Assembly: GCF_014925405.1 (NCBI RefSeq)
Contig: NZ_AQHJ01000035.1
Coordinates: 496,001-560,000 of the forward strand
Direction: 5' to 3'
From: Pseudoalteromonas ulvae UL12
Lineage (GTDB): Bacteria; Pseudomonadota; Gammaproteobacteria; Enterobacterales; Alteromonadaceae
Length of the DNA stretch: 64,000 bases
Of the stretch, positions 19,669 through 26,191 are shown in pieces (position 1 is the first letter of the stretch; the number at the start of each line of letters is the position of its first letter). The notes under the pieces were generated by a model. It was not told where the DNA came from. It made no database searches and saw only the letters and a program-made list of their open reading frames with translations. The position numbers and the translations under genes are program-made.

Positions 19669-20127
19669 TTGAGTATTGCAATCTCTGAAATAGAATTAGA
19701 AGGATCTGAATTTGATAAGGGGTCTTTCACAATGATGCCTGTAAGCTTTAATAATGAAGACAGAAATAAATATTCATCAACAGCACTTTCTTTTTGGAAG
19801 TATGCCCGTAATGACTTAGATATAGAGTTATTCTCTGAGCCTCAAATGTTAGTTGAGCAACGCTCGGGAGAGTGGTTTGGTCCAGCCATTTTACTATCAT
19901 CAGCTTTAGTTACAGGGAACTCTGAGCTAATTTCCGTATTTTGTGGGGTAGTATCAAACTACCTTACTGATTTTTTTAAAGGCAACCCAGCTCCCCCGAA
20001 AATCAAGCTGAAAGTTTTATATAAAGAGACTAAAACGACTAAAACTACTGAGATTTCTTATGAAGGTGATATTAATGGTCTTGATAAGTTAGAGTCATCG
20101 ATATTAGATGTCGTGAATAAAGGTTAA
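19669..20127 (+). CDS. Cassette gene, unknown 152-residue protein
   Basis: The TTG start is favoured by a strong AGGAG 8 nt upstream. The protein is acidic and soluble at its N-terminus (about 1-80), has one moderately hydrophobic helix (PAILLSSALVTGNSELISVF, about 85-105), and ends in a Lys/Thr-rich beta-like part and an acidic helix (LDKLESSILDVV). I recognise no family; the layout is faintly like EACC1-type effector-associated proteins, a weak resemblance only. It is AT-rich relative to the flanking chromosome. A second small gene follows after 3 nt, so the two form a bicistronic cassette. Confidence 0.7.
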   Translation: MSIAISEIELEGSEFDKGSFTMMPVSFNNEDRNKYSSTALSFWKYARNDLDIELFSEPQMLVEQRSGEWFGPAILLSSALVTGNSELISVFCGVVSNYLTDFFKGNPAPPKIKLKVLYKETKTTKTTEISYEGDINGLDKLESSILDVVNKG

Positions 20128-20130
20128 GTT

Positions 20131-20298
20131 GTGACGAATAATATTTCATTTGAAAAAATTGGGGAAAATTTTCGTGATTTCATAGATTCCTGCGGGAAAC
20201 TTAACTTTTATACTCGTTCTAAAAGGTTACAATCTGAAAAAGTTCAAGAATGTGTTGCATATATACAAGAGACTATGGCGTCAATAGCTAATTTTAAA
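20131..20298 (+). pseudogene. Small cassette gene, 3' end split by the IS110 insertion
   Basis: A GTG-started ORF of 56 undisturbed residues (MTNNISFEKIGENF... to SIANFK), 3 nt after the 152-residue gene. The IS110 element interrupts it at 20293-20300. Rejoining the far side of the element at 21437 restores a short in-frame end: fusion at the shared TTTAAA gives FKRII then stop (59 residues, stop at 21452-21454), while fusion at a CT core gives FKLGLKE then stop (61 residues). In either case the gene would end just before attC1, as cassette genes do. Helical, soluble, no recognised domain; probably a partner of the upstream protein. Confidence 0.65.
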
Positions 20299-21244
20299 CT
20301 TTTGGCGCTTCCCACATAACTCCGTCTCTGAGCATCGAATTTAAGATCACAATCATCTTCCTGACACACGCAATAAGCGCTACTTTTTTCGGTTTCCCAG
20401 CAGCAACTAATCGCTGATAAGTTGATTTAAAAACAGGGTTTGATTGGATGGCTGACATCATCGCCATGTATAAAACGGTGCGTACTTGATGCCGCCCACC
20501 TTGAATTTTTCGAAGCCCTTTATAGCGGCCACTTTCGCGATTCATAGGCGCAACGCCAACCAATGCACCGGCTTCTTTATTCGACATATAGCCAAGCTCA
20601 GGTAAGTTACTGATGATGGAGGCAGCGGCAATTTTACCAATGCCTTTCATGCTTTGTAGGATCGTGTTTTTGGCTGAATATTCAGGGCATGATTCAATGA
20701 GTTTTAGAATTTTATTTTCAATTTTTTCAATCTGATTTTTAAAGGCTGTTAAAATAGGTTTGATGGTTGAAATCAGCTCTTTTGGTAAAATTTGCAGGCG
20801 GTTTTTTTCCATCGTTTGCATGACTAACAGCTGATTTCTTCTGGCAACCAAATCACTCATAATCTGCATGATGTCAGGCTTTAGGGTGGAGAGTGTGGGT
20901 TTAATTGCTTCGCCATAATGTGCAATCAACTGTGCATCTAGCTTGTCGGTTTTAGCGCGTTGACCAATGGCGCCAGCAAAGCGTTTTATGTGTATTGGGT
21001 TGGCAATGACAAAGGGTAAATTGGCCTTTGCACATGCAATAATAAAGGGCATTTCAAGGCGGCCAGTGGCTTCAATAATGATGCGGTTTGGAGAGTGTAT
21101 TTTGATTTTTTTAATAGCCTCTGCAATCCCTTTTTCATCGTTCTTAACGGTGAAATAGATATCAAGAGGGCGAATATAAATATCGAGTTGAAATTTGCCG
21201 GTATCGACACCGACATTAATGTTTTGATTAGTATTTGTTTTCAT
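20294..21244 (-). CDS. IS110-family transposase (DEDD recombinase)
   Basis: A 316-residue transposase, normal for IS110. The N-terminal DEDD RuvC-like domain shows NVGVDTGK (first Asp), IIIEATGR (Glu) and [15 protein letters not shown] (two Asp); the C-terminal Transposase_20 domain shows [13 protein letters not shown], the [18 protein letters not shown] segment with the conserved Ser, and a helical end. It appears intact, so the element may still be active. Transposases of this family are guided by a structured bridge RNA from the element's own non-coding end; see the candidate at 21255-21425. Its stop codon overlaps the target-site TTTAAA. Confidence 0.95.
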
Positions 21245-21436
21245 AATAAGCTAACTCTTGCTTGCATAATGCGGGTTCGAGACCCAGTAGACTATTCGAG
21301 TGTGATGCTTGGAGTCTTTTGTGGCGTTCATTCTTGTTATCGGTCTCTCAACAGAGGATCCATCGCTTAATCGAACTACCACAAAAGAGAGCTTTAGTTG
21401 CAGCTAAAGCCTGGGTCTCACAATACCCGAACTCGG
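20299..21436 (-). mobile_element. IS110-family insertion sequence
   Basis: About 1.14 kb bounded by TTTAAA on both sides (20293-20298 and 21437-21442), containing one transposase gene and about 190 nt of structured non-coding DNA upstream of it. No terminal inverted repeats are evident, as usual for the IS110 group. Exact ends are uncertain by a few bases because IS110 elements use a 2-bp core rather than a clear target duplication. It sits in a small cassette gene about 30 bp from an attC site. Confidence 0.8.
21255..21425 (-). ncRNA. Candidate IS110 bridge RNA
   Basis: The region between the transposase start and the element end is non-coding and structured. A hairpin GCTTTAG-TTGCAG-CTAAAGC is at 21391-21410, and an 8-bp long-range helix joins GAGACCCA (21279-21286) to TGGGTCTC (21412-21419). 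Size and position, upstream of the transposase, fit the bridge RNA of IS110-group elements such as IS621. The guide loops have not been matched to target and donor sequence. Confidence 0.5.
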
Positions 21437-21465
21437 TTTAAAAGAATAATTTGATGGGTTTATTA

Positions 21466-21557
21466 TCCATACAAGTTGCTTAAACGGAAAAATAACAGTT
21501 GGCCATCGCTTCGCGATTTTAGCCAACCATTATTTTCCGCTTAGCAAAGCGTTAGCA
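21466..21557 (+). repeat. attC-like integron recombination site 1
   Basis: About 92 bp of imperfect dyad: TTGCTTAAACGGAAAAATAA then AGTTGGC on the left face AGCCAAC then TTATTTTCCGCTTAG on the right, ending AAAGCGTTAGCA with the GTTRRRY-like core at 21551-21557. The left (R'') box is degenerate. The next cassette gene begins 16 nt later. Confidence 0.75.
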
Positions 21558-21572
21558 GTACAGGGATATGTA

Positions 21573-24878: not shown

Positions 24879-25087
24879 GTTTAAAAACTCTATTTTTATC
24901 TCAATGAAATAAGCAATGGCCTAGTTTTGTCATGGCTGAAATAGCGATTATCAACCAACTTTTTATTGATATACCTCCATTAACCTTGTGAGTTACCAAC
25001 ATTAGCAAAGTCTAATCATTTCTACGTGAAGTGATGCATCCAAATATCCAATTCCCCTTAGAAATCCTTTGTTGTATTTTTATTTAT

Positions 25088-25183
25088 ATTAATTAAAATC
25101 AATGAGATATTTATGAGTGTCACGTATTTGCTCTTATTAATTAAAATCAATGAGATATTTATGAGTGTCATGTATTTGCTTGT
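25088..25183 (+). repeat. 48-bp direct duplication inside the third unit
   Basis: Two 48-bp blocks start at 25088 and 25136, each opening ATTAATTAAAATCAATGAGA. They duplicate the right-end terminal repeat region and explain the 928-bp spacing of the third unit. Confidence 0.85.
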
Positions 25184-25806
25184 ATATGTACAGCGTCGAT
25201 AAAACGGTCGAAGTGTGGCGAAATCGGCTTTACGACATCAGTTGGTACATGCGAAACCTAAATGAATTTATAGCCAGAGAAGCCAATAAAGAAGACAACT
25301 GCACAGGCCGATTCTGGGAGGGCAGATTTAAATCACAAGCATTATTGGACGAGCAAGCAGTACTCAGTTGTATGATGTACGTCGATTTAAACCCAATCAG
25401 AGCCAAAATGGCGAAAAGCCTGCAAGGCAGCGATTTTACGTCAATTCAAGAGCGCATTCAGCATTATAAAAAACAGTCCACGTCAGAAAACACGGAACAA
25501 ATCACACCACAACCAAAGCAGCTTATGGCGTTTGGCAGTAACGCAAACAACCAAACCATTCCTTTTAAGTTACTGGATTACTTAGAGCTTGCCGATTGGA
25601 GTGGCCGACATTTTGACCCCAAAAAGCGCGGTGCTATCTGCAAAACTCAACCCAAAATATTAGTGGAATTGGGGATTGAAACTGCGGTCTGGCTTGAAGC
25701 TGTACATAACTTCAGGCGGCAATATAGCAATTTCGCAGGCCAACCGAGTGCACTCAGACAATGTGCTCATCAGCATCAGCAAAGCTGGTATCGCGGAGTC
25801 GGCTAA
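25165..25806 (+). pseudogene. Transposase C-terminal fragment, copy 3
   Basis: The 213-residue frame is identical in protein to copy 1. The DNA downstream of its stop (25800-25930) differs from the matching parts of copies 1 and 2 at many positions, so this copy carries what looks like the ancestral right flank of the element, while copies 1 and 2 share a derived version. Confidence 0.8.
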
Positions 25807-26026
25807 GTTTTAAAAACTCTATTTTTATTTCAATAAAATGGGCAACGGCCTAGCTTTATCATGACTAAAATAGCGATTACAACCAACTTTTTATTGATAT
25901 ATCCTCATTAACCTTGTGAGTTACCTGCATTAGCAAAGTCTAATCATTTCTACGTGAAGTGATGCATCCAAATATCCAATTCCCCTTAGAAATCCTTTGT
26001 TGTATTTTTATTTATATTAATTAAAA

Positions 26027-26057
26027 TCAGTGAGATATTTATGAGTGTCATGTATTT
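26027..26057 (-). repeat. Right terminal inverted repeat
   Basis: Read on the minus strand it begins AAATACATGACACTCATAAA, matching the left end at 29 of 31 positions. Copies of it also occur in each tandem unit (near 23335, 24215 and 25095-25175). Confidence 0.8.
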
Positions 26058-26086
26058 GCTATGTATTTGCTTGTAAGTTGAAAAAT

Positions 26087-26191
26087 AGCTAACAAACCAA
26101 GTCAACGGGACAATTTTAAGTTGGCTCCCGTCGCTTCGCTCCTAACTTTAGCCAGCTAAAAGTTGCACCTGCTTGCTGCATCAGATTAGAA
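26087..26191 (+). repeat. Degenerate attC-like site 3
   Basis: The left half is good: AGCTAACAAACCAAGTCAAC, with an inner dyad AATTTTAAGTTGGCT against AGCCAGCTAAAAGTT around a CGCTTCGCTC apex like that in site 1. The right half is worn (CTGCTTGCTGCATCAGATTA instead of a GCGTTAG end), so it may be inactive. It marks the probable right boundary of the array. Confidence 0.6.

Follow-up and report, generated by a model that had tools for sequence, protein, structure and literature searches.

The window, as we call the whole 64-kb stretch of Pseudoalteromonas ulvae UL12 DNA analysed here, contains an integron array made up of an attI leader and four cassettes that we recognise, all of which end in an attC site; the locus lacks an integrase gene (intI). 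The leader (19080-19262, plus strand) is identified as attI by homology, being identical at 182 of 183 positions to the leader that adjoins intI on contig C23 of the same genome and matching, with 0 mismatches, a core pattern of 35 positions in which up to 3 mismatches were allowed. Its core (19228-19262) terminates in GTT, the point at which cassettes are joined. In the loci that we fetched, every core likewise has GTT as its last three bases, with GCT instead in L071. The bases that follow vary from locus to locus, the exceptions being cassette A, described below, and one near-duplicate pair. It is this constant end followed by differing bases, together with the intI-linked match, that leads us to read the leader as a putative attI. 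A repeat search finds a 19-bp inverted repeat, CGAGCGATTGGGTCGTTTT / AAAACGACCCAATCGCTCG, within it (19105-19249), and to its left lies a genomic repeat (18900-19033, plus strand), to which eight further copies in the genome are related at 79-86% identity. Four promoter-like sites occur in 19000-19700, compared with a mean of 2.0 in shuffled sequence, and the window's leader holds no clear candidate for the cassette promoter Pc.

Cassette A (19263-19650, plus strand) begins at the leader's end, has no open reading frame of 50 aa or more, and is also found at two other attI sites and one locus with a truncated leader. It is followed by a reading frame of 152 aa (19669-20127, plus strand) which belongs to no Pfam or NCBIfam family and has 34 homologues at E ≤ 0.001, none of them with an informative name, and by a second frame from the list of open reading frames (20131-20319, plus strand) that enters an insertion element. 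A third (21573-21818, plus strand; 81 aa, no Pfam family) has a start that looks lipoprotein-like from its sequence. The last cassette is long, comprising the gene for a DUF4062 protein of 336 aa (21944-22954, plus strand; PF13271, 69.9 bits; 1676 homologues at E ≤ 0.001) and fragments of a probable REP-associated tyrosine transposase (23029-25960, plus strand), the C-terminal part of which is present in three tandem copies (23246-25960, spaced 880 and 928 bp); the transposase match of this tandem stretch is weak, at 29.9 bits against a cut-off of 80. Beyond the last attC site, a 60-aa frame with CxxC motifs (26381-26563, plus strand; NF038384, 19.7 bits against a cut-off of 36) may be either a cassette remnant or a chromosomal gene. 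Two statements of an initial annotation made from the DNA letters do not hold: the genes are not all on the plus strand, as an IS110-family transposase (20294-21244) sits on the minus strand, nor are they all mutually unrelated, as 23246-25960 consists of three tandem copies of one stretch.

The attC sites were located with a covariance model, R1, built from 25 training sites in six other Pseudoalteromonas genomes and zero from the window's own; the training sites were drawn from loci retrieved for a leader or intI and the genome-wide scans scored 150 candidates per genome, for which reasons clusters elsewhere may be under-counted. The model replaced our home-made attC folding scans, which picked up control regions and did not recover the sites of the window. 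A scan of the whole window with filters off yields four attC sites, all in the same orientation (the matches lie on the minus strand, which is the strand modelled), with the fifth-best match at 14.8 bits. These are the attC of cassette A (19550-19650, plus strand; 36.2 bits, E = 2.2e-7), site 1 (21469-21555, plus strand; 62.6 bits, E = 8.2e-15), the left arm of which is interrupted by an IS110-family element, site 2 (21824-21918, plus strand; 82.5 bits, E = 1.9e-20), and site 3 (26089-26184, plus strand; 58.2 bits, E = 1.4e-13), which has a worn right end and is the last recognised site of the array. The three attC-like dyads proposed initially are sites 1 to 3, and the covariance search suggested at that time scores every one of them, although site 3 folds poorly by itself. 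The proposed extent of the array was right as regards these three sites and wrong as regards its start at 19669; the array begins at 19263, the attC at 19550-19650 and the attI leader at 19080-19262 having been overlooked.

When the bottom strands were folded as DNA, none of 200 shuffles was as good as site 1 (z = -5.35) or the attC of cassette A (z = -4.26), five of 200 were as good as site 2 (z = -2.22), and 45 of 200 as good as site 3 (z = -0.76). Free folding is thus strong for the first two, modest for site 2 and no better than shuffles for site 3, which agrees with the initial description of the latter as worn. Folds of the top strand give z = -1.79 for site 2 and z = -0.02 for site 3. 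The R and L boxes are paired in the covariance-model alignment of sites 1 and 2, although the outer R box of site 2 pairs in that alignment only and is unpaired in the energy minimum. Simple searches for the end patterns are weaker evidence than the covariance-model E-values: the right-end pattern has 2 matches versus 0.32 expected, a number reached in 4 of 100 shuffles, and the left-end pattern 26 versus 14.4 expected, reached in none of 100. Rfam at gathering thresholds has no match in the window and is uninformative on attC.

The IS110-family element at site 1 (20270-21475, minus strand; about 1.2 kb) encodes the transposase at 20294-21244 (NF033542, 208 bits) and is bordered on both sides by ACAAG, its placement being ambiguous by 5 bases. 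As it occupies the left arm, site 1 has no CTAAC end of its own, and the CTAAC-type left ends initially ascribed to the array do not extend to this site. Copies of the element lie at the left arms of attC sites at two further loci (L009 and L010) and beside an attC at a third (L036) in the same genome. An IS110-family transposase in the left arm of attC, repeated at several attC of a genome, is what the window shares with the IS1111-attC insertion sequences, reportedly described by Tetu and Holmes in 2008 and by Post and Hall in 2009 (both cited in PMC11187229), a likeness of transposase family and insertion place.

Where, then, is the integrase? The window contains no integron integrase gene, as had been claimed initially and as a TIGR02249 search confirms: at E ≤ 0.001 the window's contig has no match for some 300 kb around the window, its sole match being a relic about 307 kb away. 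A genome-wide search for intI and attC, also proposed at the outset, recovers this relic, an interrupted intI on contig C23, and at least 37 attC matches in other clusters (E ≤ 0.1; 150 of 1647 candidates scored). The intI on C23 is the genome's only TIGR02249 match above cut-off and is split into two matching parts by about 250 bp, so that the TIGR02249 search finds no intact IntI in this genome. Five loci of the genome are led by attI, the core pattern occurring beside intI on C23, on C27, at C34:99040, at C34:380610 and in the window; at a sixth, C34:189565 (L010), the leader is cut before the core and an intI relic adjoins it. Cassette A comes first at three of the five, namely in the window, on C27 (L036) and at C34:99040 (L037), and in L010 an attC remnant separates it from the truncated leader. 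Its 388 bp are identical between the window and L037, and one terminal base differs in L036 and L010. Identity to the window's leader is 94.5% for that of L036 and 63% for that of L037, and the cassettes next after cassette A are different at every locus. As a copied segment would have brought its leader with it, separate site-specific insertions of cassette A fit these data better. With the only above-cut-off intI interrupted, the cassette system of strain UL12 is probably frozen now, its activity belonging to the past.

The same leader type is widespread in the genus. The core pattern has 123 copies in 44 of 108 Pseudoalteromonas genomes, with at least two in 32 genomes and at least four in 14, and the reversed pattern, used as a control, has none. 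Among the IntI matches listed, which leave off the weak end so that small relics could be missed, 19 of the 123 cores have one within 2 kb and at most 104 do not; the 19 tie this leader type to intI. A two-contig assembly (G084) contains six cores and, at E ≤ 1e-25, a single IntI match. Its cores are invariant in 34 of 34 columns, which we do not count as main evidence, since the pattern itself had served to choose the loci. Two more solo sites of G084 have an attI of a second type, the one that accompanies IntI in G011 and G101. Of the 24 cores in G084, G011, G101 and G102, 23 are followed within 3 kb downstream by a correctly oriented attC (E ≤ 0.001), and none of the 24 has one upstream, where chance would give about 0.014 per core per side; 150 candidates were scored per genome for this count, and some of the attC were training sites. 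At E ≤ 0.1 in the fetched loci, a downstream attC is present at 24 of 24 cores, and at 19 of these it includes a non-training site, with a weak partial upstream match at L058 (19.5 bits) and a match at L060 that mirrors a counted site on the opposite strand. In P. ulvae, L037 is an exception to the one-sided pattern, since an attC (34.5 bits) precedes its leader by about 2.4 kb.

The distribution of integrases relative to these cores is uneven. Eight of the 44 core-bearing genomes have no IntI match at E ≤ 1e-25, and in these, judging by their sequences, nothing that we recognise would be able to act today. The resident IntI of G011 and G101 has an attI different from that of the type-1 solo sites, which would therefore require cross-recognition or an IntI since lost, and a second IntI in G102 is distant from every core. 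G084 further contains seven attC clusters without a recognisable attI (L164-L169 and L171), which means that a dispersed array needs no attI. A scan of named genomes gave 66 stretches, 54 of them in records named Pseudoalteromonas and the others in Psychrosphaera, Thalassotalea, Planctobacterium, Paraglaciecola, Glaciecola, an Alteromonadaceae MAG and a MAG labelled Bacteroidia. An 801-kb circular record of Pseudoalteromonas sp. THAF3 carries a leader, three attC matches and a 5' relic of intI of about 50 codons. As to possible carriers, the leader, as one query, has no match in 50,697 phage records; viral records contain attI cores in one contig, with two cores, and a plasmid collection contains core or leader in two records, both large Pseudoalteromonas replicons.

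Solo sites that share their left flank between species allow a view of their history. In six such syntenic pairs (L042/L067, L044/L066, L045/L064, L060/L070, L065/L069 and L043/L063), the leaders are 92-99% identical over their aligned part, with a mid-leader deletion in L070, and the cassettes are non-homologous in all six. In the five pairs for which the right flank is on the contig, flank homology restarts no more than 60 bp from an attC end for 8 of the 10 sides; the two exceptions are L045 and L066. The members of one pair, L043 and L063, occupy the place of a complete integron in G102 (L068), so that intI must have been lost or gained there. At L042, a solo site of G011, the cassette is identical at 1183 of 1189 positions to one within the intI array of G102, joined at GTT in both cases, to attI in the one and to attC in the other, whereas the flanks of L042 and of the syntenic G102 site are only 90-91% identical; this is as predicted by recent capture at a solo attI. 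Solo attI sites are scattered in Pseudoalteromonas; by synteny, several of them keep one chromosomal position across species, with different cassettes behind them, and sequence comparison shows cassettes exchanged at the GTT.

How might such sites have arisen, and how would they be loaded? We consider it likely that these platforms depend on a distant IntI acting in trans, and that they are remnants of integrons that have lost intI. Each solo attI would be what is left of an integron after this loss, and IntI produced from another locus of the genome would recombine the folded bottom strands of attC sites at the GTT of attI. One integrase gene would then be enough, leaving others free to decay. 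Relics of intI are found near L010, L049, L050, L163 (a solo site of the second type) and in THAF3; in the fetched loci they occur at 2 of 31 solo core sites, so that an origin by intI loss has no support from relics at most solo sites. Further bearing on this origin, conservation among 16 non-syntenic solo sites drops on the left at a common boundary, which lies about 75 bp before GTCAGG (row L055 being mis-anchored), close to the first codons of intI, a position compatible with a truncated ancestor as well as with a mobile unit.

Taking that boundary as the end of a small mobile unit of about 250 bp, one could propose that the leader itself has spread attI through these genomes, an idea which is compatible with service in trans. 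We regard it as unlikely, since a shared truncated ancestor also explains a boundary near the first intI codons and neither a transposase nor a target duplication was identified; the single empty-site comparison (L057, at glmS) is uninformative. For the window's own array, no empty site was found via the hydrolase gene on its left, which was matched in 4 of 26 genomes including the window's own, or via the pump gene on its right, matched in 11 of 12 genomes, in 10 of them by short stretches only. Somewhat less probable still is that every solo array is a dead, separate remnant and that cassettes differ between sites by loss only. The relics at some solo sites, the interrupted intI of P. ulvae, its worn site 3 and the insertion element in site 1, and the eight core-bearing genomes without an IntI match are what such fossils would look like; however, the cassettes of syntenic sites are non-homologous rather than nested, a near-identical cassette is found within the intI array of another species, and cassette A stands at three attI junctions with divergent leaders. 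That the cassettes simply entered scattered non-attI sites of the attG type, the leader being present by accident, is very improbable, for although such insertion is reported in the literature, as discussed in PMC12444791, and G084 has its attC clusters without recognisable attI, the window's leader is nearly identical to an intI-linked one, attC (E ≤ 0.001) lies solely on the correct side of 23 of 24 cores, and the cassettes begin right at the core end.

An integron is described as having a single attI next to a single intI, and arrays that lack intI are commonly taken to be degraded. If cassettes do turn over at solo attI sites, loading would still be going on at some of these arrays, a genome could have several first-cassette positions, and integron annotation should include the detection of attI. 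A search of titles and abstracts, with most subscription papers outside its reach, gave no report of multiple or solo attI. As a wider reading of solo sites served in trans, towards which we lean only slightly, Pseudoalteromonas would possess a distributed integron, in which one or a few IntI serve up to about eight fixed, widely spaced attI platforms, each with a short array that changes quickly, and further intI genes disappear as superfluous once one acts in trans.

Among known systems, the closest is the CALIN, which the available portion of PMC9024848 defines as an attC cluster without a nearby intI. The initial label of CALIN-like is correct by this definition, with four clustered attC sites in 19550-26184 (E from 2e-7 to 2e-20, largest gap about 4.2 kb between sites 2 and 3) and no intI beside attI as in a complete integron, but it is incomplete, since the array retains an attI that is one of several in the genome. 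By the same portion of that paper, IntegronFinder detects no attI beyond class 1, so that solo-attI sites would be classed as CALINs; many CALINs elsewhere may, by extension of the distributed arrangement, be of this kind, and the origin and activity of CALINs become testable questions. In Xanthomonas, the consulted text of PMC12444791 places CALINs at relatively conserved loci away from intI and describes them as mobilisable in trans, with no mention of attI in its text on those loci, and according to an excerpt of PMC9892861, CALINs occur in phages, one of them a Pseudoalteromonas phage. The deltaattI-type cassettes of class 1 and 2 integrons, as presented in the section of PMC12901181 available, also have attI pieces away from the usual place; there, however, a partial attI replaces the attC behind a gene, whereas here a whole leader comes first, at separate loci. 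With a sedentary chromosomal integron, finally, the window has in common an attI leader followed by an attC array, and the same chemistry is expected; such an integron forms one array beside its intI, whereas here intI is absent from the locus and several small arrays are distributed over the genome.

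Solo attI sites, leaders heading a cassette array without intI alongside, are of more than one type in the Pseudoalteromonas genome G084, where the attI standing solo at loci L163 and L170 is of a second type, which in two other genomes of the genus (G011 and G101) is linked to IntI. The same genome also holds attC clusters in none of which an attI is recognisable (L164-L169 and L171), and these are ordinary CALINs. As to neighbourhoods in G084, by ORF reading one solo-attI array (L057:3927-7640) lies directly downstream of a gene which we take to be glmS-like, and the position downstream of glmS is the insertion place of Tn7-type elements. 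Another solo attI (L056:2100-3477) adjoins ORFs that, judged by eye, appear to be a phage-type recombinase gene and prophage-like genes.

In the window, a single cassette (23246-25960) holds a fragment, probably from a REP-associated tyrosine transposase, in three tandem copies spaced by 880 and 928 bp; relatives of this fragment are also present in the attI-led array at C34:99040 (L037) of the same genome. The first cassette behind the leader, which has no ORF of 50 aa or more, contains a dyad at 19393-19476 with 27-nt arms that are 89% complementary. Adjoining the leader is a repeat of about 130 bp (18900-19033) that has eight relatives at other places in the genome and may represent a family of REP or MITE type.

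On contig C23 of this genome, intI is split by a stretch (L009:4760-5035) whose ends, as read from the sequence, resemble inverted repeats, a feature in which the interruption would be MITE-like.
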